From: Siderastrea radians
Taxonomy: Eukaryota; Cnidaria; Anthozoa; Scleractinia; Rhizangiidae
NCBI GenBank assembly: GCA_964017195.1
Contig: OZ024890.1
Location: 54,307,841-54,371,840, forward strand
Length of the DNA stretch: 64,000 nt
Reading direction: 5' to 3'
Made by a program: the position numbers and the translations under genes. Below the pieces are notes generated by a model that saw only the letters and a list, made by a program, of their open reading frames with translations, searched no databases and was not told the origin of the DNA. Positions 45,501-63,993 of the stretch are shown piece by piece (within the stretch, counting starts at the first letter, position 1; the number at the start of each line of letters is the position of its first letter).

Positions 45501-46687
45501 TTTTTCCCGATCGCAAAAAATTAGTTTCCGCAAAACACACACACATACACACAAAAATCGCCCATTCCCAAAATTACTCTCGCCAAAAAAATTAGTGCTA
45601 CACGGTATATTTAGACAACATGCTGGGTACACTGTAGTTCAATGAAGAATATCAGTGTAAACTACTCATACAGATTACCTGTGTAGTGGATTGGCCAAAA
45701 TTTTGTGGGGCATTCCTTGTTCACTGCGGTCCTGAAAGCGACGAAGAAACTCCTTGTACGAAATCTTGCCGTTGGAAGGCTCAACACCGCACCTGTAAAA
45801 AAACGTTCAAAAACTTGTGAAAAATGACAGCAAAAATCTCACATATATGCTAACAGGTTTTGTTACAGTATTCCAGAGTGTATCGCAAAGCCTAATCAGC
45901 CGTTTCGTCAAATCTAGTCATTAAAATTAATTGGATTACCCAAAAAACAGTGATAATTCAAAGAAATTTCAATAGCCAAATGTTTTGACGAAACAGGCAT
46001 TTTTACCTCTTTTTTTTACAATAACGGATGATTAAGTTCGCATTCTGGGGAGTAATAAAGAATTTTTTTTATACACATAAGCCTCGACTGTGACTCAAAT
46101 TTACAAGAACCTTTAAACTCTTCCAAACTCCCTCTCTGTGTTTGCATCAGGCTATGAAAGCACAAAACGCTCATTTTTTATTCCGCTGTCGAACTGGACC
46201 TTAGAATGAAGTTTAGGACAATTTGCCCACCAACCTAGCCAGGAAGTCATCCAGTTGCTTGTCCGTGCTCAAACGCAATCCAAAGTCTTCCATAACCCGC
46301 CTGAATTCATCTCGACTCACTTTACCAATCCGATCTAAATCCAGCTCGTTAAATGCGTGTTTCATGTCGGAGAATCCTTCGCGAAACTTCCTTTTCAACC
46401 ACCTCTCCACATCCAACGATTGCTTTCTTTCCACTTCGAGCTTTCTCGGAGAGCTCGCTTCGTCCCTTGAGCTGTTTTCTCGCATGGCAATTCCAAGTTT
46501 GCTCATTAGTCTCTCAGCTCGAATCGTTCCGTAGTTTTCAGTGTCATATTTTTGCCACAGTTTTTCAAACTCGTCATCTTCCATATAGAATCCCATTTTA
46601 TTGAGGACGTTTCTGAGCTCGGGTTTAAGAATTCGTCCCGAGCCTCCTGGGTTCATCTGCGGGATAAGATCTGCTACATCCAGGAAC
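33303..46687 (-). CDS. EFCAB6: EF-hand repeat protein resembling EFCAB6, last twelve exons
   Basis: Exons in transcript order: 46235-46687, 45679-45792, 42787-42894, 41444-41620, 40119-40335, 39073-39143, 37998-38122, 36792-36991, 35869-35954, 34836-34938, 34168-34236, 33303-33515. All junctions are GT-AG and in phase, giving 644 residues and a stop at 33303. About six EF-hand pairs are visible, for example FNELDLDRIGKVSRDEF, LYSNIDRKDSGLLTQQQF, FTSIDRQGSGTVSRNDF and FKKLDKDNNEFLTLQEF. Only the last keeps most calcium ligands; the others are degenerate. This layout matches EFCAB6 (DJBP), a long protein of many weak EF-hands linked in mammals to DJ-1 and the androgen receptor and expressed in testis. 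The first exon enters in phase, so 5' exons lie further right, outside the region that could be read. Another large EF-hand family is possible. Confidence 0.75.
34168..34236 (-). CDS. EFCAB6: EFCAB6-like exon k
   Basis: Acceptor ATTTTTAACAG, donor GTACCA, 69 nt, phase 0 at both ends. Encodes PMDDVVQKPNKGLSTVTAKL plus RDK. Confidence 0.7.
34836..34938 (-). CDS. EFCAB6: EFCAB6-like exon j
   Basis: Acceptor TTCTTTCACAG, donor GTAAGG, 103 nt. VNYVKFLEPYSKHRRG ends the EF hand and a His/Gln-rich linker follows. Confidence 0.75.
35869..35954 (-). CDS. EFCAB6: EFCAB6-like exon i
   Basis: Acceptor TATTTTGGTAG, donor GTGAGT, 86 nt. Encodes NILQDMCVELTDYESRVLCD and KFDLKKEG. Confidence 0.75.
36792..36991 (-). 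CDS. EFCAB6: EFCAB6-like exon h
   Basis: Acceptor TTTCTCTCAG, donor GTAAGC, 200 nt. A basic linker (AKVSPPKRGDNDFMMRSNK) leads to HWETLWKEFTSIDRQGSGTV, an EF hand with loop DRQGSGTVSRND. Confidence 0.85.
37998..38122 (-). CDS. EFCAB6: EFCAB6-like exon g
   Basis: Acceptor CTCCGTCAG, donor GTAATT, 125 nt. Encodes FGVTVTRNEVKRLWDTLITD and CLEYWQFVRTFG, the second hand of the pair. Confidence 0.8.
38222..38374. mobile_element. MITE with GCCTGTTC-AGGCTC termini, in an EF-hand gene intron
   Basis: GCCTGTTCAAGGCTCTCAGA at 38222 is mirrored by ...CTCGGAGCCTGGGACAGGC ending at 38374. About 153 bp, non-coding. A related, weaker copy may lie at about 35525-35655. Confidence 0.6.
39073..39143 (-). CDS. 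EFCAB6: EFCAB6-like exon f
   Basis: Acceptor TTGTTTGCAG, donor GTGAGA, 71 nt. Encodes AFYELDEVNSKRMTQNMMIK, a degenerate EF hand. Confidence 0.75.
40119..40335 (-). CDS. EFCAB6: EFCAB6-like exon e: Ser/Pro-rich linker
   Basis: Acceptor TTTAAACAG, donor GTAAGA, 217 nt. A basic, Pro-rich disordered linker (LPPLPEKDSPPMSPRKQLRP) is followed by VEELKTLIKKVLQNNYQAFE, the first helix of the next pair. Confidence 0.8.
41444..41620 (-). CDS. EFCAB6: EFCAB6-like exon d: EF-hand pair
   Basis: Acceptor TTCTTTACAG, donor GTAAGT, 177 nt. NIDRKDSGLLTQQQFRAAVE and PIDSDGMVKYVEFMSKF form an EF-hand pair. Confidence 0.85.
41668..41815. repeat. Diverged direct duplication, about 55-bp unit
   Basis: GAGTCAGAAGAAACAAGTTC near 41680 recurs as GAGTCAGAAGACACAAGTTC near 41770, both followed by GGGATAAATNTTGCTT. 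The copies are about 90 bp apart. Confidence 0.55.
41817..41863. other. Perfect 19-bp GC-rich palindrome, 9-nt loop
   Basis: AGCCTGCGCGCAGACGTCT at 41817-41835 is exactly inverted at 41845-41863, with loop ACTAATAGG. Each arm also contains the self-complementary words TGCGCGCA and AGACGTCT. Confidence 0.75.
42787..42894 (-). CDS. EFCAB6: EFCAB6-like exon c: linker helix
   Basis: Acceptor TTTATTAG, donor GTAAGT, 108 nt. Encodes YHHSEVGSNYSTTSAIEARI then MDLFQRDFLALLGTF, the entry helix of the next EF hand. Confidence 0.75.
43004..43287. mobile_element. MITE with TAGAGYGSTTTTCAA termini
   Basis: ATAGAGCGCTTTTCAAATGA at the left is mirrored by ATTGAAAACCACTCTA at the right, extending through GTGTCG and AAGTAATT. 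About 284 bp, with several CCAAT/ATTGG words inside. Non-coding. Confidence 0.65.
44371..45607. mobile_element. 1.24-kb element with TACCGTGTGGCACTAA termini
   Basis: TACCGTGTGGCACTAAATTT at 44371 is mirrored by AAAATTAGTGCTACACGGTA ending at 45607 (one or two mismatches). A second inverted pair, GGTGATTCCAT (about 44660) and ATGGAATCACC (about 45297), lies inside and suggests a nested insertion. No transposase ORF. The TACCGT start resembles the element at 1957-2221. Confidence 0.65.
45679..45792 (-). CDS. EFCAB6: EFCAB6-like exon b
   Basis: Acceptor TTTTTTACAG, donor GTAATC, 114 nt. Encodes CGVEPSNGKISYKEFLRRFQ, completing the EF-hand pair started in the previous exon. Confidence 0.8.
46235..46687 (-). 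CDS. EFCAB6: EFCAB6-like exon a: two EF-hand pairs
   Basis: Acceptor TTGCCCTCAG, donor GTTGGT, 453 nt. Starts FLDVADLIPQMNPGGSG and ends LDDFLA plus two bases (phase 2). A charged linker (SSRDEASSPRK) separates two EF-hand pairs. Confidence 0.8.
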
Positions 46688-46829
46688 CTGAGGGCAAAAA
46701 GGTAGCAGTGAAGGTCACAACAGTCGGCAAAGTTGGAGTCGCGACCGGTGCTTAACTACGGATTCTGATTTCTATGAGTATTACTTTCGACCTAGATGGG
46801 AAGCTAGTTCATCGGACGGTAATTAGTCC

Positions 46830-48082: not shown

Positions 48083-48577
48083 TGTGGTCGCAGGACCGCC
48101 TTCGCTGCGAGGAAACGGACCAAGACGTCTAATAACAAATAGAATCCATTTATTACAGAGTCGTTACGCACGTTCGTTGAAACAAATAGGTGTGATTGTG
48201 TGGTAACGAAAACTAAAAATACAAAGGAAACAAAGAACCAGAATTACAACGGCAGGTAGAGCGTCGAATTATTACAACAGAAATAATATTACAAGAAAAC
48301 GAATCATTACAACTGGCCAAAAAACTTACATCTGTGTCCTTATAACCTTGCCAACACCTTAGAGTCCTTGAAAGCCGTTATTATGTCCGTTAAGCCGTAA
48401 AACCGTAAATTATAACATAAGCTAAACTCTTCGACCGTAGAAATCTAACGCCAAAATGTTCACTAGTCAATCGAAAAACTAGCGTGGTCATCCGGGACCC
48501 AGCACTCGGTCCAGACCGCCGCAGTTCGGAATTCAAAGTCACGTAATACAAAGTCACGCAAATGTTCTGCGGTAACA
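48083..48577 (-). repeat. 3' LTR (about 495 bp) with adjacent purine tract
   Basis: On the minus strand it begins TGTTACCGCAGAACA and ends GCGACCACA (TG...CA). A purine-rich tract, GGGGCCGGGAA (48578-48588), lies just before it. The gag-pol stop is only 30 bp upstream. The half at 48083-48336 is shared with the 5' LTR. Confidence 0.75.
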
Positions 48578-48607
48578 TTCCCGGCCCCTAAACGCCCGAA
48601 GGGGGGT

Positions 48608-51600
48608 TTACTTCTCTTGATTTCTCTCCTGCTCTTCCTTGGGTAGGATCAGAACCAGCTTATTGATTGGTCTTCTGAGAGTAGTTGATTGTGTCTTAAC
48701 AACAGCAGACCGGACAAGGCCTTGGCCGTCTGGCTCTGCTTGCACAACTACGGCCAGTGACCAAGCATTGCGTGGGACGTTCTCTTCTCGGAGTATCACA
48801 ATATCTCCTTCAACCAGGTTTCGCTGAGGATGCTGCCATTTACTTCTTTCTTGCATCACTACCAGATACTCCTTCTTCCACCGAGACCAAAATAGATTCG
48901 CCAAATACTGCACTCTCCGCCACCGGCGGCGCATGTACACATCATTCTTCTGAAACTGCCCAGGGGGAGGCAATATCACAGTTGACTTGGTTGTCAGGAT
49001 ATGGTTGGGAGTAAGCGGTTCGAGGTCATCAGGCTCGCCAGAAACTGTCGTCAGGGGTCTTGAATTAATAATAGCTTCAACTTCACACATAAGGGTTTGG
49101 AACGATTCTTCGTTCAAGGAGTGACCGTACTCTTCCATTAGGCCAGCAAGAATCTTCCTTGTGGTCTTAATCTGCCGCTCCCACACACCGCCCATGTGGC
49201 TGGCAGCGGGTGGATTGAAGAGCCAATCGATGTTTTCTTCCCGTAATTTGGCTCGGATCTCTTCGTGATCCATCTCCTCTATGGCTTGGAGCAACTCGTT
49301 CCGTGCGCCGATGAAATTTGTGCCGTTGTCACTCCTTATTTCTCTTACAGGACCGCGGCGGGCTATGAAACGTCGGAGTGCTTGAATGAATGAACTTGAC
49401 TCGAGCGTACTTGCGACTTCGATGTGGACTGCTCGGCTGACTAAACACGTGAAAAGGGCGCCATACCTCTTCACCTCCCTGCGTCCTTCCTTAATAATGA
49501 ATGGCCCAAAGTAGTCGACACCCGTGTAAGTAAATGGCGGTGCTGGTGAAATGCGATTCTTTGGTAGGTCGGCCATCTTCTGTTCACTTGGTTTGCTGTG
49601 GTTACGGCGACAGAAGACGCACTTTGATATTACATGGCGCACTGCTGCATTCATCTTGACGATCCAGTACTTCTCCCGCAGGGTTGCGATAACATGTCCA
49701 CGTCCAGCATGACCTAACCTTTTATGGGCGTGGCGGATGAGTAGCGTTGTAACATGACTTTTCTGTGGCAGAATTGCTGGATGCTTTGTTTCATGAGGCA
49801 AATCTGCGCGCTTGAGACGACCTCCAACCCTGAGGATACCCTCTTCTAAGAAGGGGTCAAGACGGTGGATAGGGCTGTTATTCTTTACAAATGCTTTCTT
49901 CTGCCCTCGCAGCTTCTTTCTGTCTAGATTCATCTCATTTTCCGTCTCTCTGAGGACATGGATTTCTTTGCTGAAGGCCGAAGACTGGGCAAACTTTAGG
50001 ATGGCAAGCTCAGCCTTTACTAAGTCTTGCACTGTCAAAGGCAGGCGTGGTCTTTCGATACCCTTAGGCTTCAGCATCTTGATGGTCGAAGATGACCTTT
50101 GGTCCGTAAGGTTCTTTCCATCACTTGAGACCTCATCCTTAACTTTCAAACGGTCATTACGTCGGGTTTGCAGTATGTTCTTAACTCGCAGAAACACAGC
50201 CACAGCTCTCTTCAACTGATACCAATTGGAGAAGTAGTTAATCAGCTTGCTTGTGGCGTCAGCTGACTGATTAATGATGACTGCGCTGCTTGTGGTTGTC
50301 CTTTTCACTTCCGGGTCATCCTCTGGGACCTGGCTTGCCGTGAACGGTTGATGTGGCCACTCACTTTCGGGTTTCCACAAAAATGCTGGGCCCTTTAGCC
50401 AACGCCGCCCTCCTACAAGAGCAAGTCCATCCAAGCCCCTAGAAGCATCATCTGCCGGGTTCTCTTTCGTGTCTACATACTTCCATTGGTTCAGGCACGA
50501 ATGGTCACGAATGAGCTGCACCCGATTTGCGACAAACACGTGAAAACGTTGCTGTTCATTAGCGATATAACGCAGAACAGTTGTGGAATCCGTATGGTAC
50601 ATGAACTCGGGATTACCATCTATCTCTTTCTTCAACAATTCTCCAACTCGAATAGATACAGTGGCAGCTGTCAACTCTAGACGCGGTATTGTAACCGGCT
50701 TGATTGGAGCCAGACGTGCCTTCCCAATAAGGAATGTACAGTGGATACGGTTGCTGTCATCCTGGAGTCGCAAATAAGCAACAGTGCCATATCCAATGGA
50801 GCTTGCATCAGAGAAAACATGTATTTGTCGGGACATTACAGTTCCAAACTCTGCTGGTATGACGCACCTGCTAACCTTGAACTGCTCCAACAGGGGAAGC
50901 TCGCTCAGCCATTTGGCCCACTTTATTTGGTACTGGTCAGGAACAGTGTCATCCCATCCTATCTCTTCGCGGCATAGGTCCTGGAGTATCTTCTTTGCTG
51001 GGAGCGTAAATGGTGCGGCAAAGCCCAGTGGGTCATAAACTGAGGAGATTACTGACAATATGCCTCTTCTTGTCGGCGGCTTGCAGTTAACAATAATACG
51101 AAATTCAAAGACATCAGATTCCACACACCATTGTACCCCAAGGGCACGTTCAACGGGCAAACGGTCATGACCCAGGTCGAGATCCTTAGCTTCCTTAGAA
51201 CGCTTCTCTGTCGGAACGGATTCCAGAACAGCGCGGCTATTGCTTATGAATTTGGTCAAATTAAAACCTCCATGGGTACATGCTTGGTGGAGACCCTGGA
51301 TCAGCTCAATGGCAGTTTGTTCATCTTTGACGGAACGGAGACAATCGTCCACATAGAAATTTCTACGGATGGTTTCGGCTACGAGTGATCCACGTTGGGG
51401 CTCTGTGTCTTCAGCTGTCTGCTTCAAGGCAAAATTACAGCAGCTCGGAGAAGAGGCTGCTCCAAAGAGGTGTACCGTCATCTGATATTCCTGTATGGCC
51501 GCCTCCAAATTCCCATCAGGCCACCAGAGAAATCTCAGGAAATCGCATTGCTCATCAGGGACCCGTACTTGATGAAACATGGCCTCTATATCTGCCATGA

Positions 51601-54600
51601 ACGCTACACGATCTTGCCGGAAGCGTGTGAGAACTCCGACCAAGGAATTAGTAAGGTCTGGGCCTTGCAACAGTTGGTCGTTTAAAGATGTACCTTTATG
51701 CTTGGCGCTGCAGTCAAAGACTACACGTATTTTATGGGGCTTCCTTGGATGGTAGATGCCGTGGTGTGGTATGTACCACACCTTCCCAGGGTTAGCTTCC
51801 AGACGGTCTTCTGGCACCTTTCGTGCATATCCCCTTGCTATCATTTCATTTACGAAATTGACATAATCGTTCCGGTAGTTCTCATCATGCAACATCTTCT
51901 TTCGTTGCCAATTTGCTCGTTTTAGCGCTTGGTCACGGTTGTTTGGCATTGTCAGCTGAGGTTCTCTGAACGGCAATGGTATCACATAATAACCGTCTTG
52001 ATGTCGAATGCCTTGCTTTACCTCCCTGATGAACTTCTTATCTTCTTGAGAGTAACCGTATTCGTCGGGGCCGTACTTGTGGTCGTTGAAATCCAATTCA
52101 AACATTTGCTGAATGGCTTGGGGCGATACCACCTCTTTGATTGACTCCACCTCCCGAACCGTGATCCTATGGCAAGTAACATTATCAGGAATTGGAGAGT
52201 CCTTCACTGGCAGAGGTCCAGTCAGAGTCCAACCATGACGCAATCGCATTGCATAAGGTCCTTTGTCACCACTTGGTACTACCTCTAAAGGTTCCATTGC
52301 TGCAGGACAATTACTACCGATCAACAACCCAACTTCCAAGTTCGGTATAAACTCTGGCATCCTTTCGGCGACACCACGGAGATGTTCCCACTGCTTCACC
52401 ACCTCCGGAGTAGGAATTTGCTGTTCGGTCACAGGTATTTCCATTCTTGTATAGGATCGGGGTATCTCGATTGGGTTTTTATCCTCCAAATCTGTTACAA
52501 CTAAATCGTTCACAACGGTAGTGGTTACAAGGCTTTGGCCATGCATGGTGCCAAGCTGTAATTCTGTTCTTTCACCGTCCACGCCAATCTGTTGTTTGAG
52601 ATTCTCCGTTAAGAAGCAGCCACCGCTACCGTTGTCATAGAAAGCATAAGTGATGACACTTTCAGTGCTGCCTTTCTTCCTTACCCGCACAGGCAGGATG
52701 GCATGTAGAACTGCCTCTGCATGTCTGGTGGCATGGCACGAGGTTTCTTGGGGATTAGTACAGGCGTTGCTCATTGGCCTTTCTTTTCCTTGCTTAACAG
52801 AGCTGTTATTGTCTTTCTGCGGTAGTTGGAAACCATCAATGTGAAGCGCAGAGGGGTGGGACTTCCCACAGTGTTTGCACTTTCTTCTGTTCAAGCAATT
52901 TCTTGAGAGGTGGTTTGTTCCATAGCATCCAAAGCACATATTCTTCTCTCGCAAGAAGGCTCTCTTAAGTTCAGGTGTTTTCTTACTGAATAATTCACAA
53001 TCATCCAGATCATGAGCATGACTGCAGAAAAGACATGAAGGGTTACCATGGTTACTTGGAGACCCAGCCCCGTCTGAGAATGGGGGTTTGATGGCTCCAG
53101 AAGAACTTGTCGCGAAACTGCTTTCCTTGTATTTCCATTGATTTCCAGAGCTCTTTGGTGGTGTCTTCACCTGATTGGGTGGCTCTTTCACTTTGGGAGG
53201 TTTAACGTCTTCCTTAGTCTTGTTTAAGGCTTCTTTGCCAAACACCGGGTCATTGGCTGACTCGGACGCGTACTCCACGAATTCAGCAAGGTCCGCGAAG
53301 CATATTAGGCTGCTCTCCCTCTTCTTCTTCTTAAAGACGTGATCTCTCCATTTGGCTTGTAAGTTGGCTGGAAGCTTAGAAACAATTGCTTGCATGTTAG
53401 GCGCATGATCGAGTACACGCATGTATGAAATGTTCTTCATAGCGACAGTGCATTTTGTCAGGAAAATCGACAATCGCTTCAAGCCTTGATTATCGTCAAA
53501 CCTTATAGGAGCCCAACGTAGGATCTTGTTGAGGTAAGCGGTAGAAATCTTAAATGGGTCCCCATATTCCTTCTGTAGTAGCCGTCGGGCTTCTACGTAG
53601 CCTTCATCGGGGTTCATGTGTAGGCATCCTTGAATAAGATCTGCAGGTTCGCCCTCAAGATGCTGATTTAGGTAATACAGAAGATCAGCACTGTTGGTTG
53701 CTTTAGAGCGGATACGTGCATCAAAAGCCATAACAAATGTTTTGTACCCGATTGGATCACCCTTGAACTTAGTTATGGTCGGTTGAGGCAATGTCATAGC
53801 AGCAGTTAACTGTTGATGGGTCGCGATAATTGTTTCATTTTGCTTCTGCTGTAATTCTATTACACTCTGGAAGGTACGTTCTGCTAGCCGAGGTGACTGA
53901 ACCTCAGAGACTCCATGACTGATTTGCTCAGGGGTTTCTGGACCATGACCAGTCGGTGTAGATGAAATTCCGTTCTCAAATGTGCCAGGGATGAACTTTG
54001 TGACCTTAGGATTAGGTAGGGAACTCTCTGTAGCTGCATCTGTAGCCCCAGTGTTTCTTGTGCCTTGGAGGGTTGACTTTTCCTGCGTCTCTGCAAAAGC
54101 TGGATTATGAGCAGTAGAGTCAAGAGCTTTAGGGCTAAATGCGAGGACGTTAGGCAGTGATGTCGGCACAGATGATACCACAATTGGTGAGAAGGATGCG
54201 ACGACAGATGGTGGGCCTGAGCTACACGACGGCGGAGGAACTTCTTGTTCTCTATCTATTTCATTTAATGCCTTCTCTCTTGCTTCAGCCTTTACTATTT
54301 CTAGTTGAAGCTCCAGATCTTCCTCTGCAGCTCTGAGGGCCTGCTTCTGTTTAAGCATTGATCTCTCAGCCTTTAGCTCTGCCAAACGGACTCTCTCTCT
54401 GTCTCTGGCAGACAACCGGGAACTTGCTTTTGATGCTTTAGATCCTTTGCTGCTGGCCCTTTCTAACTGATCAGCCAAACGGCCCTCGGCTTGGGATACC
54501 CACGCATACACTGGGTGTAGATATGCCATTATATCTTTGATCTTCTCATCATGACGGGCGTGCTCACGATCCTTATCTCCACCATCAGTTAACTCTTCAT

Positions 54601-54937
54601 GGTAAGCATGGAAGGCATCCTTGTACTGCTCTATTAAATCATTTAAATTAATCAGTTCATTTTTGACTAAGTGCAAATTGTTAATGTCGACCATAAACTC
54701 GGATACTTCGGTTCTCTTCCTAGACACAGCTCGCAGAGCGTTTACCCGTTGTTGCTTGAGCCAATTAAGTCTTTCTTCCTTGCCTTTTTCCGTTAAAATT
54801 CGTTGCCGTGGTCCTAAAGAATCCTGAGAATGGCCAGTATCCAGCAATTCGCTTGAAGTTTGTTCCTCGTTCCCGTCTATGGCCTTTTTTTCATTCGACA
54901 TCTTCGAATTTTTGCACGTTAAGTTCGCCTGGAACAT
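48608..54937 (-). CDS. BEL/Pao gag-pol polyprotein (2109 aa, intact)
   Basis: A single undamaged frame. Approximate positions: gag with a charged coiled-coil region (about 60-215) and a retroviral-type gag domain near 385-550; CCHC-type zinc knuckles at about 635-695 (CLFCSHAHD to CKHCGKSHP); aspartic protease with YDNGSGG near 768; reverse transcriptase near 1060-1260 (FMADIEAMFHQVR, YVDD at about 1193); RNase H with VFSDASS near 1376; integrase zinc-binding HKRLGHAG-CVFCRR near 1730-1770; DDE core near 1800-1920 (GVDYFGP, RSDNGTNF, HMGGVWERQ); and a C-terminal DUF5641-like domain. Gag and pol share one frame without a stop, as usual in BEL/Pao. The catalytic motifs are all present, so it is potentially active at protein level, though the broken 5' LTR would cripple transcription. 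Confidence 0.95.
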   Translation of the reverse strand: MFQANLTCKNSKMSNEKKAIDGNEEQTSSELLDTGHSQDSLGPRQRILTEKGKEERLNWLKQQRVNALRAVSRKRTEVSEFMVDINNLHLVKNELINLNDLIEQYKDAFHAYHEELTDGGDKDREHARHDEKIKDIMAYLHPVYAWVSQAEGRLADQLERASSKGSKASKASSRLSARDRERVRLAELKAERSMLKQKQALRAAEEDLELQLEIVKAEAREKALNEIDREQEVPPPSCSSGPPSVVASFSPIVVSSVPTSLPNVLAFSPKALDSTAHNPAFAETQEKSTLQGTRNTGATDAATESSLPNPKVTKFIPGTFENGISSTPTGHGPETPEQISHGVSEVQSPRLAERTFQSVIELQQKQNETIIATHQQLTAAMTLPQPTITKFKGDPIGYKTFVMAFDARIRSKATNSADLLYYLNQHLEGEPADLIQGCLHMNPDEGYVEARRLLQKEYGDPFKISTAYLNKILRWAPIRFDDNQGLKRLSIFLTKCTVAMKNISYMRVLDHAPNMQAIVSKLPANLQAKWRDHVFKKKKRESSLICFADLAEFVEYASESANDPVFGKEALNKTKEDVKPPKVKEPPNQVKTPPKSSGNQWKYKESSFATSSSGAIKPPFSDGAGSPSNHGNPSCLFCSHAHDLDDCELFSKKTPELKRAFLREKNMCFGCYGTNHLSRNCLNRRKCKHCGKSHPSALHIDGFQLPQKDNNSSVKQGKERPMSNACTNPQETSCHATRHAEAVLHAILPVRVRKKGSTESVITYAFYDNGSGGCFLTENLKQQIGVDGERTELQLGTMHGQSLVTTTVVNDLVVTDLEDKNPIEIPRSYTRMEIPVTEQQIPTPEVVKQWEHLRGVAERMPEFIPNLEVGLLIGSNCPAAMEPLEVVPSGDKGPYAMRLRHGWTLTGPLPVKDSPIPDNVTCHRITVREVESIKEVVSPQAIQQMFELDFNDHKYGPDEYGYSQEDKKFIREVKQGIRHQDGYYVIPLPFREPQLTMPNNRDQALKRANWQRKKMLHDENYRNDYVNFVNEMIARGYARKVPEDRLEANPGKVWYIPHHGIYHPRKPHKIRVVFDCSAKHKGTSLNDQLLQGPDLTNSLVGVLTRFRQDRVAFMADIEAMFHQVRVPDEQCDFLRFLWWPDGNLEAAIQEYQMTVHLFGAASSPSCCNFALKQTAEDTEPQRGSLVAETIRRNFYVDDCLRSVKDEQTAIELIQGLHQACTHGGFNLTKFISNSRAVLESVPTEKRSKEAKDLDLGHDRLPVERALGVQWCVESDVFEFRIIVNCKPPTRRGILSVISSVYDPLGFAAPFTLPAKKILQDLCREEIGWDDTVPDQYQIKWAKWLSELPLLEQFKVSRCVIPAEFGTVMSRQIHVFSDASSIGYGTVAYLRLQDDSNRIHCTFLIGKARLAPIKPVTIPRLELTAATVSIRVGELLKKEIDGNPEFMYHTDSTTVLRYIANEQQRFHVFVANRVQLIRDHSCLNQWKYVDTKENPADDASRGLDGLALVGGRRWLKGPAFLWKPESEWPHQPFTASQVPEDDPEVKRTTTSSAVIINQSADATSKLINYFSNWYQLKRAVAVFLRVKNILQTRRNDRLKVKDEVSSDGKNLTDQRSSSTIKMLKPKGIERPRLPLTVQDLVKAELAILKFAQSSAFSKEIHVLRETENEMNLDRKKLRGQKKAFVKNNSPIHRLDPFLEEGILRVGGRLKRADLPHETKHPAILPQKSHVTTLLIRHAHKRLGHAGRGHVIATLREKYWIVKMNAAVRHVISKCVFCRRNHSKPSEQKMADLPKNRISPAPPFTYTGVDYFGPFIIKEGRREVKRYGALFTCLVSRAVHIEVASTLESSSFIQALRRFIARRGPVREIRSDNGTNFIGARNELLQAIEEMDHEEIRAKLREENIDWLFNPPAASHMGGVWERQIKTTRKILAGLMEEYGHSLNEESFQTLMCEVEAIINSRPLTTVSGEPDDLEPLTPNHILTTKSTVILPPPGQFQKNDVYMRRRWRRVQYLANLFWSRWKKEYLVVMQERSKWQHPQRNLVEGDIVILREENVPRNAWSLAVVVQAEPDGQGLVRSAVVKTQSTTLRRPINKLVLILPKEEQERNQEK

Positions 54938-55129
54938 TTAGGCCGTCCGTGTAATCCTGGGAACCAGCTTCTGCCATGCATGCGAAGAATCAATTTCCCG
55001 TTCTAGGCGATTTAGAGAGCGAATTTCCACCACAAATACAAACAAAATCCAAAGACGATTAATGTAGATCCTGTAAATAACTCCTTTGAAGTACGTAGAA
55101 CGTTAGTGTGAAGATTTTTCGTTACGAAA

Positions 55130-55383
55130 TGTGGTCGCAGGACCGCCTTCGCTGCGAGGAAACGGACCAAGACGTCTAATAACAAATAGAATCCATTTAT
55201 TACAGAGTCGTTACGCACGTTCGTTGAAACAAATAGGTGTGATTGTGTGGTAACGAAAACTAAAAATACAAAGGAAACAAAGAACCAGAATTACAACGGC
55301 AGGTAGAGCGTCGAATTATTACAACAGAAATAATATTACAAGAAAACGAATCATTACAACTGGCCAAAAAACTTACATCTGTG
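55130..55383 (-). repeat. 5' LTR, R/U5-side 254 bp only
   Basis: Matches 48083-48336 base for base as read by eye. It then diverges abruptly at 55384, where unrelated GGCGTA-rich sequence replaces the expected U3. Confidence 0.85.
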
Positions 55384-55716: not shown

Positions 55717-55724
55717 TTGGAAAG
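55717..55724. repeat. Left 8-bp target-site duplication
   Basis: TTGGAAAG, immediately outside the left terminus; identical to 63986-63993. Confidence 0.85.
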
Positions 55725-55757
55725 CAGAGCACGCGGGCATTTTGTCTGCGCATGCGC
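55725..55757 (+). repeat. Left terminal inverted repeat
   Basis: CAGAG, CACGC, then GGGCATTTTGTCTGCGCATG, then CGC. It matches the right terminus except for the five-base insertion and one C/T change, and contains an NRF1-like GCGCATGCGC. Confidence 0.85.
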
Positions 55758-55865
55758 TGGAGAAATTGGAATAAAGAATTCGTCCCGCCATTTTGTCGCC
55801 TCGAGCTCGTTGCGAGGAGTTTCAACTGACTGATCAACGCTTGAAAATCGATTCCATCAAACGCA

Positions 55866-56066
55866 ATGAACGCGCACGTTATGTCTGCATGCAGTACTAA
55901 CACCATGGGCCGTTGTAGTATTTGTCATCGATTTGGCTTACGAGAATTAATCCGTCAAATTGCTACCGTGGAAGGAAAAGAGCGCAAAGCCACGAGAGTT
56001 TACATCGACATCGCTCCACATTGGGAGGCTTACACAAGAAGGCAAGGGATACAGGCAAGTGTCTAG
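55866..56066 (+). CDS. Small Cys-containing ORF at the left end of the transposon (possible second gene)
   Basis: 66 codons, or 54 from the inner ATG at 55902 (MGRCSICHRFGLRE). It is basic, with a CSICH cluster, and not recognised. A possible following exon with a good acceptor (TCTTTTCTTTACAG before 56262) and donor (GTATTT after 56418) exists, but no frame joins convincingly: one stops at once and another needs an alternative donor. Its symmetric position relative to the main gene is the chief reason to list it. It could be noise. Confidence 0.25.
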   Translation: MNAHVMSACSTNTMGRCSICHRFGLRELIRQIATVEGKERKATRVYIDIAPHWEAYTRRQGIQASV

Positions 56067-56418
56067 ACATTGAAGTTCCAGTTTTTTGAAAGACGATGCT
56101 ATATCTCGAAACGATCTTTAGATATATGGCTCTGTTTAGATATGATTTTTTTGTTCTGAGCTGACTTTGCTTCACCTTCGATGTCAATTTGATTGAAATT
56201 GTGACCGTCCCCCAAGATTGAAATTACCACAGGTAACATTGGCTTTCTCTTTTCTTTACAGTGACACAAGATTCCAGTCTTCAAAAAATGTTCCACCTGC
56301 GTGATTGTCATTTTGTTTCTTGGCTGTTCGGGAGAGTTTTCGTACGGCAATCTTTTGAATATTTGCATGTCATGGATCTCGGAGATCTTTGGTCGAGTTG
56401 CTGATCAAGTCTACAGCA

Positions 56419-58120
56419 AAGGTATTTAGCTACATACCTACACAATTGTCATAATTACATTTGGTTGCACTTTCTTTATGGCGTATTTTTCAATTGGTTT
56501 TTGTTTCATTTGGCGTCGAAGCTCTTTTTCGCTAAAAGTACTAGCTCGACGCGAAAATCAACTGTAACTTTTTTATTTCACCGTCCCCCAAATCTCGTAC
56601 TACCATCAGTGTATGTTTTATTAATTATTGTTTCATTTTATCAAGTTAATTTGCACCAGAAAATTGCGTGCTCTTTACTTTCTAAGTTTAAACAAGTGAC
56701 CATTTTCATTCCAAAATGGCCCCTAACTACGGTTCATTTGCTGACGCGTACCAATGGCAAAATAATTTGACCTTACGTTTGGTTCATAAAATAGTTTGAA
56801 GTGCAGATACTTTGGTTGTGAACTGTAGGGTATTTTAAATGATTTTTCGTAGTTGTCACAAACTTTCTGCAGTACTCGGTTATGCATGGTTTAATTCCTC
56901 CCTGAGGCCTCGGGATCTGCCAAAATTTTTTCCTGTGGTCGTGTTAATTCCCCACCCTTAGATATGACTGTATATGTAGAAAGAGAAATTTTCCCAGCCC
57001 TGGGGCACTTGACACCAATATAGCTGACTGCTTCTTTTTAAAATGAGCCAAGTTATGATTTTATTTCTTTATTCAAGCAAAACCTGTCAGAAGTTTCACA
57101 ACAATTAAGTGTATCAAAATTCTCTGCCATTCTAAGCCAAGACTATTCGTCTTAACGTGGGCTATACAGGCTGTTATATTTAAAAGAGTATGCTCCTCAA
57201 CCAGTTACCAGTGTGCTGCGTACTTTTGATGCCCTTGCCAAAGATTTCCAGTATTAATAATAATTTTATAAATACACATAAAGTACATCCTGGTCTTACA
57301 GTTCATGCTTTTCAAATACAAGTAAACTAGCTAAAGCATGATGTATATATCCAAAGGAAATCCTTATCAAAACTGCAGCAACTTGATATAAAGATAAGTA
57401 TTTTGTGTTTGTTTAAAATTAATAACAAATTATTGAATTATTTGTTACTTGCAATGTCAGGTACAGATTTCTGCCTGGATAAATGATTTCTTTCAATTTA
57501 AGTACTTACAAAATTGAAAGATTTTCCAGGAGAGAAGCTGGCCTTGTCTATGTGGTTTAGCACCATTTTCTTTTTCATCCCATGAGTCTTTTTGCCAACA
57601 GATAACATGCATATAAATTATTATATATCCTGTGGACTATACAGCTACTTTGATTTTCAAAACTTCATCTGTACGACTATTTGCTAGCCCTGAGTTTGTG
57701 TAATTTTCCTAGAAACTGCTGCAGTTTGTTAGATACCAATTCCTTTTTTGGACATCAGTGCATTTACCAGTGAATAGAAATGTCACAATTTTACTGAAAG
57801 CTCTAAAAAGGAGCAGACTCTAGATAACTTTTTTAATATGCTTCAGTTGTTAACTTTCACACGTGCATGACTCCAATAACTGACCCCGAACAGTCAGGTG
57901 AAAAATAAGCCAGAGACTCAAAGGATTGTGCAGTGTCCTGGATATGGACCTCCCTGATTGAAATCACACACCTGCCCAATCATTTGACCATATGTTTTGT
58001 GGAAGTTTGTTTTAGCCAAGGAAATTAATTTTTCATTCTTGGCAGTTAATTTTATTTTTAGTAACAAATTGGGACAGCAACCATGATTTATGAATTCCTT
58101 GCAAAGGTGCAATATATCTG
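56419..58120. other. Transposon interior without a recognised gene
   Basis: AT-rich sequence; no exon with clear similarity on either strand. Confidence 0.4.
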
Positions 58121-58129
58121 ACATGATAC

Positions 58130-58260
58130 TTTGATGTGCTTTTCTCGTAAATGTATACAGCGTGATCCTTAAATTTGTTTTTCTCGCAAATTTATGTAAC
58201 ATGATACATAAATTTGTTTATCTTGAAAATGTATGTCATATGATACTTTAATTTCTTACA
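58130..58260. repeat. Diverged tandem repeat, about 40-bp unit
   Basis: Three consecutive units of the type CTCGYAAATGTATGTAACATGATACTTAAATTTGTTT are seen, with further fragments (AAATGTATGTAACATGA, TATGAAACATGATACC) at about 58383 and 58455. Confidence 0.55.
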
Positions 58261-58480
58261 AATTTAGCATGTCAGTTGGTAATTCCTTGCACAGTAGTTT
58301 CCTATTCTTCACATTACTGTAATGTATGACACGTACCTTTTGCATACCAACGTGTGTACACTATACTTTTCTTTAACCCGCAAATGTATGTAACATGAAA
58401 TGTTTTCTTTGCAATTTAATGCAATTCAACGTTTTTGCTGAGGTTTCAAACTTATGAAACATGATACCTTTGTATTTGTG

Positions 58481-58740
58481 CAATCCTGGCCAAAAGGGTT
58501 TGGGGCACTTCCCTTTTTTCATGCCTTCTAATGTGAAAATTGCAAGTAACCAGCAATGTACACACCTAGAAATAGCCTTGCAAAGATATCTCCCCCACAC
58601 TAAACTGTAGATTTATGACACATGGTTGACTCCTGGCACCCAACATTATTGCACCCAAGGGGGGGGGGGGAGGGGGAGTAAATAGAATTGCTGTTTTCAC
58701 TGAAAGATGACAAAGTGTCCCAAAGTTTTGGCCAGGATTG
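58481..58740. mobile_element. MITE with CAATCCTGGCCAAAA termini
   Basis: CAATCCTGGCCAAAAGGGTT at 58481 is mirrored by AAAGTTTTGGCCAGGATTG ending at 58740. TGGCCAAAA-type ends recall Tc1/mariner-derived MITEs. It sits just past the stop codon of the transposon gene, so it is either nested in the element or overlaps its 3' UTR. It contains a G-rich run near 58661-58677. Confidence 0.55.
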
Positions 58741-58760
58741 TAGCTCTCAAATTGACATCT

Positions 58761-61700
58761 TTATGTAAGGCTAAACACAGCTAAGTTAGATCCTTTTAAT
58801 TGAGTCTGCCAGTCACGCATCACCATTCTTTCCAGGTATCTGACAAAATACCTGGTATTACCAGACAAGCTTGTTGCTATAATACCACCTCGAAGGCCAT
58901 GTGTGTGGCTTTCAAAAAGGGAAATGCTTCTTTGGTTGAAACACAGCAGCATTGATTTGTCTGGTGGTACAATGAGAACTGCAGCAAATTTTGGATGTTG
59001 GTTATGATACTGCGCAAGGAAGTCTTCCAGGTCTTGAGTGGAGACAAAACCCGTATCTACATCAATCTGGATTTTCTGAAACTCTTCATGATTCTGCTGT
59101 AGAACATTTTGGGCGTCAAGGTTGAGTTGTTGGGCTGGTAAATTGAAGGTGCTGTAAATGTGATTGCCTTTAAAGATCAATTGGCTATAGATTGGAATTG
59201 TCTGGTTGAGATCTTTTAGTTGGTTCGGAATTGGTAGTGTTCCTTCGAGAAAATGGCGTCCAGTTAGCAATGCAATGACTGTGCAGGCATTACTTCCACC
59301 CACTCTTCCACCAATGGTTGATTGTGAAAGGTAGTTTGGCAAGAGCCACTCACTTACATCGAAGTGTTGGTTTGCAACAACAGTTATACAGGTGCGTTGT
59401 ACAGGTGTAGTTGCTGAAGGGGTTGACTGAGGTTTATTTGCTGGCTGACGTTGATTTGCTTGTTGTTGTTGTTGTTGTCGTTGTACAGGTGCAGTCGCTG
59501 AAGGGGTTGACCGATGTTGATTTACTTCTTGTTGTTGTTGTTGGTGCCACTGGCAAGAACATTGAGATGAAATTGCACGGACTGTGCAGGTGTTATTTGG
59601 ACACAAATTACATTTAGTGACTGAACTGTTTGCTCTCTTATGTCCTCTGACAGGGTGATGACATTTGGTGCAATGTGGTGGTGCTTTGGATGCTGATGAA
59701 TTAGTATTTTGGGTTAGTTCTCGGCTAGTGTTAGAAGTGATACATGGTTGTTGTGGTGGATTTAGATTAGCAAGCTCATTGTTCAGTTGTTCAATTATGT
59801 TTTCAAATTCTTCTCTCTCCATTTCTCTCACACCATTACTACATGTGTCTTCATCGTGGGCATCATCTGTCACTGGTGCTGTTGTTTCATTGCTGTCATC
59901 CATGATAGATGAAGGGTGTAAAATGGCTTCCTTTGCAATTTGACCAAGCTCTTGTACTTTCTCTTGCAGGAAATCTTTGCAGAGTGGACAAGAAGTTGAC
60001 TCGTTAAGACATTTGCAGTGAAAGGAATGAAAGCAACCAGTCAGTATTTTCCAGGATTCATCAGGGCTAGAGATCTTACATTCTGGTAAGTCGCATTTCT
60101 TGGTTGGGTCAGGCTTGATATTGCAGTGGTAACCAAGAGGCAAAACAGTAGTCTTTGTAGGAATGTTAGAGCATATAGTAGGTAATGTTACATGACTTGG
60201 GTTACGTGTAGTTGCATTGTTTCTACTTGAAGAGAAAGAACTCTCTCCTGGGGCTTGAGCAATTTTTTTAAACATTAGAGAGAGTACTTGAGCACATTTA
60301 ACTTTGAGGAATTGAAGTTGACTGTGGGAAAAAGAAAACTGTTTAGGTGATGTGAAAAATGATCTGAAGTTAGACTGCTTTTCTTTAGATTGAAAGATAG
60401 CTTTTGCTTTTTTCCGTAATTGATCAGCAGTGTCAGAAGATTTTGTTTGTGCTCGCAAAATACTGTGTGTATTTTCAACTGGATATTCATCAAAGATGGT
60501 AATGTATTTACGAAGTAGTTCATAAAGATGAGGTGAATACTTTCCCCAGTGTAAACACATATTTATCCAGACTAGTGGGGTTTTGTTGTAATGACGTCGT
60601 CGTAGGCAAGTAAACATAATCCAGATTCTTATGATGGCTCGAAAGTACTCTGAAAAGTGGTTAAGTTTAAAAGAAATACTGTAAATAGAAAGGACCAGTG
60701 GTATATAGTTATCCAGTAGATTAAGAAGGGTGCCATATTGAACATCTTTAAATTGAGAGAATTTGTGCATGACAGTTCGTCGAATAAGTGTCCAGCCTCC
60801 ATAAACTATTTCTAAAATAAGACTCACCCTCCAGGGTTTAGGTTTATCTGCAAGTTTGCTGCTTGGGAAGATTGCCTGATATACTGATTTAAAAAAAGGA
60901 TGAAAAGAATTGACAATGTGTTCTCTACTGTTTAAGGAGATATGAAGAGGACCAATAGTTGGAACAATTGACAAAATGGATGGCTGTTGATTTGTACTCC
61001 CAGGAATTGTAGTGTGGATGTGACTGTCAGTGGGATATGAATATGAAGAGTGATCATCACAGATGCGGGGATGTTCCTGAAGAGCACTGGTCAACCCTGG
61101 AGCACAACTGCTAAACTTATTAAGACATTGGTATATGATTTGCCTGCAGTAGAATTGGCAGGGCCAATCACCAGGCTGAAGAAGAACAAACTTTCTCATG
61201 TATGCAGCTAAGCCTGTACTGAGTACTATGTCATATGCTGCCTCAAAGTCATGTATTGACTTCAGCCGCAACTCCACAAAGTCTAACAAGTGCAGATTGT
61301 CCATTTTCCTCATAGTCCTTACATTGTCACTTTCGCAATACTGATGTGTATTGATTCTCTGCCGTTGAAGATCAGGATCAAAAAATGCTTGTGTAAGCCA
61401 GTCGGGCATTTGAGAAGCATAAGTTTGACTTATATCGTGCATGCAAGAAGCAGATGTAATAACTCCTTGGCAAGATCCTATATCTATGCCATTTACGTCA
61501 TGGATGACATTTGCCTGTTCCAGACTTATTGCTGGGATGTTGAAAGCTTTAACTACCATTGTGCACATAGTCTTAGCCTCTGATGGCTTTTCGTTCAGTG
61601 GCCTCCTTTTTGAATGGACAGATGTGTAATCGTCGATCACTAGGACCAACAACCACTTGTGCTCTATTGCTTCTGTCACAAAATGTTCAAATGACTGGAA

Positions 61701-62095
61701 ATGTGTTTCTGCCATGGTTTGTATGATGTTGTTCACTGTTCTTCTAGCACAAGAATGCCCCATGATGTGCTCAGTTTCCATCCCTTCTTGGTTAACGTGA
61801 CTACTTCTTAGATATAATGCAAAATCAATTTGTAGGGGATTACATATTTGACTGAGACAATAGCACATATTGTAAATGACTGAAACAACTCTCTTTTTGT
61901 TAAGTTCTGTGCGGTCTGTTGATTGCCTTGGAGTTGTCATTGCAGCCAGGAGTGTATCAAATAGCTTTTTGGCACCAGCAGAAATACAAAACTCCCTGAA
62001 TTTGTCCGGATCATACACATTGCTTTCCTTTTTCTGTACCAGTTCATGGTAGATTTTGTCTTTCACCAAGGTAAGCTCTTCTTTCATGTCACATC
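58761..62095 (-). CDS. Transposon gene exon 3: core, RING and peptidase-like domains
   Basis: Acceptor TTTCCCATCTAG. The first two bases complete an Arg codon from exon 2, then CDMKEELTLVKDK. 3335 nt without a stop, ending at 58761-58763. The lack of damage over this length indicates recent coding constraint or recent insertion. Confidence 0.85.
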
Positions 62096-63849
62096 CTAGA
62101 TGGGAAATAAAATTTGTGGAGAAAACCAAAATCCTGGTTTTATAGAAAAGTGGTTTTATTTATACCTGGCTTACAATAACCTTCAACAATTAAACGACTG
62201 TAAGCAGATGTAGCTGTTTATACAAATCTTGTTATCACAGGTAATCATGTGTTAGAAAAAATAAACCAGCAGCGTGAAAAGTTGTGGCCACTGTTAATTC
62301 TGTAATGTAATGATAGCTGTCATGATTATTTCGTTTTGGCTATTAGAATGTTACTTTTGGATGGAGATAATTTTGTGAGAAACCAAGTTCATTGGTTGCT
62401 TTTTCTGATGTAGCCTTGAGAGGTGCAACCATTTGGGCATTGGGGCACTTTATACTTTCCATGAGGTAGTATTGCACTCTCAAAATGTGTGTTAATACTA
62501 TTATTATTACCATTCAGTTGCATCATAGGGCTCCTTGCCATTGTATAATAATGTGACTTTGTGGTTTAAATTTTTTCAAACCAGTTTTATTTTTATTTCC
62601 CTTTGTCTCATGTTCATTATCATAATCTGAGACAAAGAAAAAAATCAAACTAGTTTGAAAAATGTTAAACCAAACGTAATTTTAAACCACAACATAAATG
62701 CAATATGTCAAGAATTTACAGTTTCTTAAGACATTTGTCTAAACAAAGTTGATAAATGACATGAAACGCTGGTTTGCTTGGTTGGCCAGCCAGCCAACTG
62801 AATTACACTATATGAACTACCACCAATTCTGTGTCAATTTTTATCTTTGTCAAGTAAACAATGCAGCTGATGCAGGGAGAATGTTGATTGACTTTTGGAA
62901 AAAGTACTAACTGAACAAGGGGTTATTTTGTTTCAGTAAATATGTGTTTCTATCTTTGCTAAGTTATTCATATGTTAAAAAGTATCTTAAGGCAAGATTT
63001 TACTAGAAGGTGAATGATTGGAGCCCATTTAACCTGGAGACCGAAATCTAGGTCGGATTTCACTCTCTGATCTTGTGCGAGTGTTCCAAAAAAATCCCAA
63101 ACTGTGGACTGAATGAAAGCTGGAAAAAATTTTCCGGCTCTGTACTCTGAGTGATACCTTCGACTATAATTTATCAAGGAAGGAATAACGAAAGAAGTTT
63201 GTAAAATGACTTTATTTCGAAGTATTGCAAATCTACTTACTTTCTGATAAAATCTTTAAATTTTCTTCCATTTCTAAATACATTTGTTTCGGTAAAACTA
63301 CCATCTCTTCCATCTGCCTATCACTAGAAACACATTCTGCGCTGTCTGCCTTTGTACTGAATTTTTTTCTGGAAGCTCTTCGTCCTCTGTGGTTGAGATT
63401 CATGCCAACAAACTTTTCAAATAAACAAACAAAAGCTTTATGTTAACATTTTATTTTGAAGTGCAAAATTACGTAACATAAGCTCCAATAGGAGTAGTAT
63501 GTTTTCATGCAGAAACTTTAGGAGTACAGCAAGCAGTACAAACGTTTAATATTCTACTAACGTGATGAAATGTCTTGCCAGTCATTCTGTGCTCCTGTAC
63601 TGCTCGTCTGCAGCCTTCACAAATTTCCCTGTGGGTTGTTTCTTTCAAAACACCGGTGCCGAAACAAGATACAAAATCGTCGGCGTACGCGTCTGCATTT
63701 TGAAAATTACAGGGTTGAGACTTCCTGCCACAAATGACACAACCTTCTTTCGACCTTTTTAACACACACTTAACGTGAGGAACAATAAGCAAGGCAACAA
63801 GTTGAAGTACAACAAAAAGACATTTAACCGCAAAGCCGGCCATCTTCAT
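58761..63849 (-). CDS. Transposon-encoded 1264-aa protein: Cys-rich module, transposase-like core, RING-H2, cysteine-peptidase-like domain
   Basis: Three exons: 63562-63849, 63241-63412 and 58761-62095, with phases that join exactly. Residues 37-80 form a Cys cluster (CVIC to ICEGC). Residues 160-730 look like a transposase-type core, with candidate catalytic acids in VIDDYTSVH (308/309), KMDNLHL (419) and PVENTHSILRAQT (E694). Residues 821-859 form a RING-H2-like finger (CDLPEC, CFHSFHC, CPLC). Residues 962-1000 hold a second Cys/His cluster. Gln-rich linkers with two STPSATxPVQR copies lie near 1005-1054. The C-terminal 180 residues have GGSNACTVIAL (Cys1091) and LFESHTHG (His1217/1219), resembling a Cys/His peptidase active site. 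Similar multi-copy genes are common in cnidarian genomes as far as I recall. The first ATG gives a hydrophobic stretch (5-27) that may instead be the end of an intron, so the N-terminus is unsure. Functions are inferred from motifs only. Confidence 0.8.
62559..62692. mobile_element. Hairpin MITE in intron 2 of the transposon gene
   Basis: TTGTGGTTTAAA at 62559 is mirrored by TTTAAACCACAA ending at 62692. The arms continue through TTTTTCAAACYAGTTT and CTTTGTCTCA. About 134 bp, non-coding. Confidence 0.6.
63241..63412 (-). CDS. Transposon gene exon 2: basic/helical linker
   Basis: Acceptor TTTGAAAAG, donor GTAAGT, 172 nt, leaving one base. It encodes MNLNHRGRRASRKKF and a helix, MEEMVVLPKQMYLEMEENLK. 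Confidence 0.7.
63562..63849 (-). CDS. Transposon gene exon 1: Cys-rich N-terminal module
   Basis: 96 codons from ATG 63849 (a second ATG at 63843) to donor GTTAGT after TTTCATCAC, phase 0. The module includes EGCVICGRK and REICEGCRRAVQEHR, then TGKTFHH. The pyrimidine-rich start would also fit an intron end with AG near 63770. Confidence 0.65.
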
Positions 63850-63957
63850 GAAATTATTCTTCTGCCAAAACAAAAACAAAAAAATTGGCGGGAAACGGAC
63901 GCGTACGCGCAGAGCAGGCTCATTACAGCGGTTACTCCTATGGTAGAAATTTGCTAT

Positions 63958-63985
63958 GCACATGCGCAGACAAAATGCCCCTCTG
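63958..63985 (-). repeat. Right terminal inverted repeat
   Basis: Read inward on the minus strand: CAGAG, GGGCATTTTGTCTGCGCATG, TGC. It lies 108 bp upstream of the putative start codon and may include promoter sequence for the transposon gene. Confidence 0.85.
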
Positions 63986-63993
63986 TTGGAAAG
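63986..63993. repeat. Right 8-bp target-site duplication
   Basis: TTGGAAAG, immediately outside the right terminus and seven bases from the window end. Confidence 0.85.

Follow-up and report, generated by a model that had tools for sequence, protein, structure and literature searches.

A probable cnidarian transposon with terminal inverted repeats whose predicted protein combines a DDE-type transposase core, a RING-H2-like finger and a putative viral tegument-like deubiquitinase domain

In a stretch of 64,000 nucleotides from Siderastrea radians (assembly GCA_964017195.1, contig OZ024890.1, positions 54,307,841 to 54,371,840 of the forward strand; hereafter the window), we found an element of 8,261 bp, spanning positions 55725-63985, that lies between two copies of TTGGAAAG. 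The explanation that best accounts for the data as a whole, and that we consider likely, is that of a complete cnidarian cut-and-paste transposon equipped with a putative ubiquitin-controlling module. What the analysis shows directly is the ends of the element, the duplication, an intact predicted reading frame, predicted folds and conserved residues.

The two copies of TTGGAAAG, which were read directly from the sequence (55717-55724 on the left, 63986-63993 on the right), form the target-site duplication (TSD). The element ends inside them are inverted, the left one reading CAGAG CACGC GGGCATTTTGTCTGCGCATG and the right one, as its reverse complement, CAGAG GGGCATTTTGTCTGCGCATG. In full, the left terminal inverted repeat (TIR; 55725-55757, plus strand) consists of CAGAG, CACGC and GGGCATTTTGTCTGCGCATGCGC, and the right TIR (63958-63985, minus strand) reads CAGAGGGGCATTTTGTCTGCGCATGTGC on its own strand; the CACGC represents five extra bases that follow CAGAG in the left TIR and are missing from the right one. 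The arms at 55735-55757 and 63958-63980, 23 nt each, are 96% complementary. When the window was scanned with the 20-mer core of the TIR, allowing up to three mismatches, exactly two matches were observed, and none of 100 shuffled sequences gave two. Similarly, a 20-bp inverted match between the two 1-kb end segments occurred in 0 of 500 Markov resamples (a 12-bp match occurred in 74 of 500). The direct repeat is 11 bp in all, since the CAG after the right duplication repeats too, and we preferred to read it as an 8-bp duplication because equal termini, with CAGAG at both ends, result. Past the right duplication, the window holds seven bases of flanking DNA (CAGGAGG). The empty site of the element is predicted to read GGCTTCTTGGAAAGCAGGAG. 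Overall, the element is very likely a complete TIR transposon of the cut-and-paste type, mobilized by an Asp-Asp-Glu (DDE) transposase.

A long frame runs on the minus strand from 62159 to 58761. The gene model for this strand comprises three predicted exons, namely exon 1 (63562-63849, with the ATG at 63849), exon 2 (63241-63412) and exon 3 (58761-62095, with the stop codon at 58761-58763), and amounts to 1,264 codons with zero internal stops. The predicted introns (149 and 1,145 bp) have GT-AG borders and consistent phases, and the end of exon 2 together with the start of exon 3 resembles, by eye, the N-terminal sequence of P0016, a protein from Exaiptasia. Exon 3 would encode the transposase core, a RING finger, a further Cys/His cluster and a viral tegument-like deubiquitinase (VTD) domain; residue numbers given below for these parts run from the Met at 62087, which begins a 1,108-amino acid part of the open reading frame (ORF). 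A first-pass annotation of this DNA had already described a complete DNA transposon with inverted ends and a duplication of 8 bp, had considered a chance palindrome very unlikely, and had pointed to an unusual multi-domain gene, spliced and of over 1200 codons. The observation was confirmed, and its interpretation is supported by the sequence and by the predicted core fold; the product of the intact, predicted three-exon model combines a FAM60A-like finger, a DDE core, a RING-H2-like finger and a VTD domain. The VTD, RING and FAM60A-like parts, absent from that earlier reading, are identified here. A separate ORF on the plus strand near the left TIR (55866-56063), with a Cys-x2-Cys at its start and no Pfam match, may belong, as an exon, to a second gene within the element.

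For structure prediction, the protein was modelled in two pieces, with residues 651-859 (the RING and the second cluster) lying outside both. The AF2 model of the core piece had a pLDDT of 88.5, and its closest solved folds, as found by VIA, were the P element and Hermes (hAT) transposases; transposases filled all of the first 43 rows of the structure comparison. The predicted core fold fits a DDE-type transposase. Folds and conservation delimit an RNase H-like catalytic region with a helical insertion at ORF residues 145-547 (60447-61655, minus strand), within which conservation singles out D152 (61632-61634), D307 (61167-61169) and E538 (60474-60476) as candidate catalytic acidic residues. 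A BFVD search with the core returned zero viral matches with E below 0.001. The element does not look like a Helitron or Helentron: the ORF gave no Pfam match to RepHel (HUH nuclease plus helicase), and the ends of the element are inverted repeats with a TSD. Five proteins tested against NCBIfam had no match. Some weak Pfam matches, including DUF4476 (E 0.17), COX8 and AAA, were taken as chance.

The C-terminus of the protein is, in our view, very likely of VTD ancestry. The VTD-type (herpes tegument-like) deubiquitinase domain covers residues 904-1108 (58764-59378, minus strand) and includes Q922, C935, E1059 and H1061. The predicted structure of residues 860-1108 had a pLDDT of 90.1 and, when used as a Foldseek query, yielded six matches with E below 0.001, all of them viral-tegument-like deubiquitinase chains (8adc, 8adb, 8add and the murine cytomegalovirus M48 chain 2j7q). 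From the structure table of PMC9741609, and from the sequence common to 8adb and 8adc, we infer that these two chains are Waddlia VTD1 and that 8add is the zebrafish Helitron VTD; the VIA comparison with 8add gave a Z of 18.5 over 179 residues at 2.8 Å. The sequence evidence is weaker than the fold evidence and goes in the same direction: Pfam Herpes_teg_N was matched in three of 50 family members (the best E, 5e-4, falling short of the curated cut-off), a profile search reached 8adb at E 0.008, and Pfam gave no match in the VTD region of the window's own ORF. A search with residues 830-1108 retrieved 12 proteins, all from the same transposase family, VTDs in other contexts being beyond the reach of this search.

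Gln922 and Cys935 were retained in 37 of 37 aligned rows, and the His in all but one of the 35 rows that have a letter at that column. The third position was occupied by Glu in 18 of the 37 rows (the window copy included), by Asp in 16 and by Gln in one, and was missing in two. The domain resembles known VTDs in its predicted fold, its Cys, its x-S-H motif and the invariant Gln located 13 residues ahead of the Cys, but the window copy has Glu in place of an Asp that Erven et al. 2022, in the sections available to us, call invariable in VTDs as part of an Asp-x-His motif (PMC9741609). The same sections report a complete loss of activity for the zebrafish VTD when the Cys, Asp or His was changed to Ala. 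Because of this invariance, and because of the inactive Ala mutants, the question arises whether the Glu form of the domain is active. A further difference concerns the vehicle: the transposon VTDs described in those sections reside in Helentron-type rolling-circle Helitrons, whereas the present one belongs to an element with TIRs and a DDE core.

The RING-H2-like finger (residues 665-703; 59979-60095, minus strand) has the pattern C-x4-C-x14-C-x-H-x2-H-x2-C-x6-C-x2-C, in which the first ligand pair is spaced C-x4-C rather than the usual C-x2-C. Its ligand columns (C-C-C-H-H-C-C-C) were retained in 43-44 of 50 rows, and a profile search reached RING-H2 ligases of the Arkadia/RNF38 type at E about 0.003; the Pfam RING families gave no match for the window's own ORF at E ≤ 1. 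A second Cys/His cluster, placed by column counts at residues 805-848 (59544-59675, minus strand), is probably zinc-binding. The RING-H2-like finger is a putative ubiquitin ligase and the VTD domain a putative deubiquitinase.

Upstream of these parts, residues 29-84 of exon 1 (about 63598-63765) match the Pfam family FAM60A (PF15396) with E 1.2e-7 and 32.4 bits, the cut-off being 27. FAM60A, or SINHCAF, is a subunit of the Sin3-HDAC complex, and the available sections of PMC13254352 place a GATA-like zinc finger in its residues 1-95. The match is limited to profile positions 7-59 of 206, that is, to the N-terminal finger, and the remainder of the profile is unmatched. FAM60A was not among the families listed for 50 members, though the proteins inspected seldom extend upstream of exon 3, and a PDB sequence search with exon 1 gave no match at E ≤ 10.

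Among 5.8 billion predicted proteins, 4,696 candidates were scored and 154 relatives were found at E ≤ 0.001, of which 120 were listed. In the matches listed, the 11 rows with an NCBI species name all come from cnidarians (Oculina, Desmophyllum, Acropora, Exaiptasia, Dendronephthya, Paramuricea and Rhopilema). The similarity to proteins of stony corals points to a probable stony-coral host. The protein P0001 (1,042 amino acids) is shorter than the ORF, by 23 residues at its N-terminal and 43 at its C-terminal end, and shows 10 differences in 1,041 compared residues; it may stem from a second locus or from another assembly of the present one. Domain architecture was counted in 192 proteins, 145 of which matched the core (115 of these being core-complete) and 47 of which did not. 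Matches P0144-P0192, which were obtained with P0102 as the query, cover only 10-31% of that protein, so gene prediction may have fused two different elements in P0102.

Thirty of the core-complete relatives reach at least 350 residues past the core; the RING pattern was present in all 30 and the VTD pattern in 27. Conversely, no RING was detected by pattern in 60 of the 115, and a midpoint-rooted tree places 54 of them on the same side. However, 44 of the RING-less proteins end in the same motif just ahead of the RING, with a stop right after the junction residue in 34 cases, and in 43 of the 44 the junction residue is R, K or M, whose codons can end in G. It is probable that these sequences stop short at a conserved intron, as would result from an unspliced donor reading G-TAA. 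The codon argument is weak by itself, since a Lys occupies the junction in the long window protein as well. We dropped a 'short class' of transposases devoid of RING and VTD, as their ends fit an unspliced donor at the conserved intron, and we claim no gain or loss of RING or VTD because the short proteins probably end there.

Another relative located between inverted repeats, L001, was the sole match in prokaryote genome contigs (one of 41 pattern matches). This contig of 4,276 bp is filed under a metagenome-assembled genome (MAG) of a soil Bacteroidetes; because its GC content is 22-25% per kilobase and its protein has a RING, our guess is that it is probably a eukaryotic contaminant in the MAG. 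The encoded relative (920 amino acids, 30% identity over 707 columns) contains the RING, and no VTD was found in it. It shares with our element the core motifs IDDY, DWPxQ, GPLHISLNxRE and YxVENxHS. The gene lies between inverted repeats that start with CAGGGCGGACAT at 122 and 4004 and begin CAGGG, and a subterminal motif, TGCCGATCAT, occurs in three copies inside the left end and in two inverted copies inside the right end. A GC-rich 14-mer inverted match such as this one was obtained in 0 of 2,000 resamples, and any 14-mer match in 14 of 500. The virus contig collection contained no relative detectable with queries A1 and A4, the L001 protein or the TIR 20-mer.

These features suggest how the element might work. 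The N-terminal parts of the spliced protein, with the FAM60A-like zinc finger as the best candidate, would bind the transposon ends, and the transposase would pair both TIRs. The RNase H-like DDE core (D152, D307, E538), with its helical insertion of the P-element/hAT/RAG1 type, would cut and join the DNA, and insertion with an 8-bp stagger would generate the TTGGAAAG duplication. We infer both the mobility of the element and this order of the transposition steps. The RING and VTD would most likely control ubiquitin, carried either by the transposase or by host factors that act at the ends of the transposon; this agrees with an idea of Erven et al. and is our leading guess. The module could, for instance, spare the transposase from the proteasome, although self-protection as its actual role is a suggestion that we make with reserve.

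The module might, on the other hand, be a captured passenger that plays no role in transposition and is decaying in this lineage, as the change from D to E could indicate. Transposons often capture gene pieces, Glu replaces the VTD aspartate in about half of the rows (18 of 37), and L001 does without a VTD altogether. Yet a decaying passenger would fit poorly with the retention of the Gln and Cys in every aligned row and of the His in 34 of 35, or with RING ligands that are kept in 43-44 of 50 rows and a RING that is present even in L001, at 30% identity; we regard the passenger explanation as unlikely. Much less probable still is that we are dealing with a domesticated host gene for a RING/VTD protein that happens to sit between inverted repeats. 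Its regulatory domains do exceed the needs of transposition, and animal VTD genes are thought, according to the available sections of PMC9741609, to have been domesticated from transposons. Nevertheless, an exact 8-bp duplication stands beside matching ends, the candidate catalytic acidic residues are retained, there are 154 divergent relatives (E ≤ 0.001), and L001 too lies between inverted repeats. One observation on that contig weighs against reading L001 as a second TIR-bounded element: no 8-bp duplication adjoins the L001 repeats (2 of 8 positions at best).

As to classification, the first-pass annotation had left the superfamily open among hAT, P, KDZ and a new one. The predicted fold narrows the choice, its nearest neighbors being the P element and Hermes/hAT, but does not close it, and the Pfam scans listed no profile of hAT, P or KDZ. 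Specifically, Pfam gave no such profile for the window ORF at E ≤ 1, for the core plus six relatives at E ≤ 10, or among 25 of the 30 matched families listed for 50 members, and exon 1 matched no P-element/THAP profile. hAT transposons have 8-bp TSDs, short TIRs starting with CAG or TAG and target sites obeying the rule nTnnnnAn, and 8-bp TSDs and TIRs are common to the P element and hAT. At the one insertion at hand, our element shares with hAT the 8-bp TSD, which fits nTnnnnAn, and the CAG-starting TIRs with CAGAG ends. It may also resemble the P element and Hermes, its two best VIA matches among solved folds, in that a helical insertion interrupts its predicted RNase H core. A lineage within the hAT or P superfamily that has drifted past profile detection and acquired the RING and VTD would explain these likenesses. 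Against such a lineage stand the lack of a hAT or P profile in the Pfam searches just described and a different set of conserved, family-specific motifs, found even in the 30%-identical L001; the added RING and VTD are a further difference from the P element and Hermes. We consider this placement rather doubtful, though less so than the passenger explanation above. RAG1 and Transib are set apart from the element by other traits, the RING of RAG1 being N-terminal (here it is C-terminal) and the TSDs of Transib being 5 bp long.

A divergent animal branch of the KDZ (Kyakuja-Dileera-Zisupton) transposons appears less likely again. In the available sections of the respective sources, 8-bp duplications are made by Zisupton and by one Dileera family (PMC12730594), and Zisupton genes are multi-exonic and encode long proteins (PMC9297572), so that the TSD, the spliced gene and the length of the protein are all points of likeness; however, a Pfam model for KDZ exists (PF18758), and it was absent among the families listed for the ORF, the core and the relatives. 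Coral transposons described as miniature inverted-repeat elements with TTAA sites, in the available sections of PMC2872659, are piggyBac-like and distinct from the present element. A bolder reading, which we hold to be somewhat less likely than not, is a previously undescribed eukaryotic cut-and-paste superfamily, which would be marked by a core with the four motifs shared with L001, by TIRs starting with CAG, by a RING 'writer' and a VTD 'eraser' of ubiquitin in one chain, and by an N-terminal finger shared with FAM60A. If true, this would imply a self-contained control of transposase stability and a route, through TIR elements, for the spread of VTDs among animals.

Erven et al. have proposed, in the sections available, that VTD deubiquitinases spread via transposons, mostly Helitrons among those found, and have already published that corals and sea anemones have VTDs fused to 'transposon-associated domains' (PMC9741609); the term DDE is absent from the main text of that paper. 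Our searches, confined to Creative Commons-licensed literature, turned up neither a TIR/DDE element containing a VTD (the family may be catalogued elsewhere) nor a transposase that carries a RING together with a VTD, and no description of transposases with a FAM60A-like finger. Fusion of a VTD to a DDE/TIR transposase represents a second class of carriers for these domains. Because the protein, the ends and the putative activity share one 8-kb unit, the question of why a transposon needs a deubiquitinase becomes directly testable. In addition, a large cnidarian family, whose proteins were hypothetical, uncharacterized or RING-type in the matches listed, gains a predicted fold, candidate catalytic residues and ends, and the FAM60A-like finger offers a way to test whether a subunit of a chromatin co-repressor is linked to the DNA-binding domains of transposases.

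Other features lie in the same window. An element of the BEL/Pao type, with two identical long terminal repeats of 254 bp (48083-48336 and 55130-55383), spans 48083-55383 and ends about 340 bp from the transposon; it has an intact minus-strand frame of 2,109 codons (Pao peptidase, reverse transcriptase, integrase, DUF5641), and no clear duplication was seen at its ends. The open frame at 3-1184, with no Pfam match at E ≤ 1e-4, encodes a protein that resembles, by eye, a protein-primed family B DNA polymerase of the Polinton/Maverick kind. Two minus-strand frames are probably host genes, one for an RNA-binding protein (22716-23540, with two RNA recognition motif stretches) and the other with EF-hand motifs (46213-46755).

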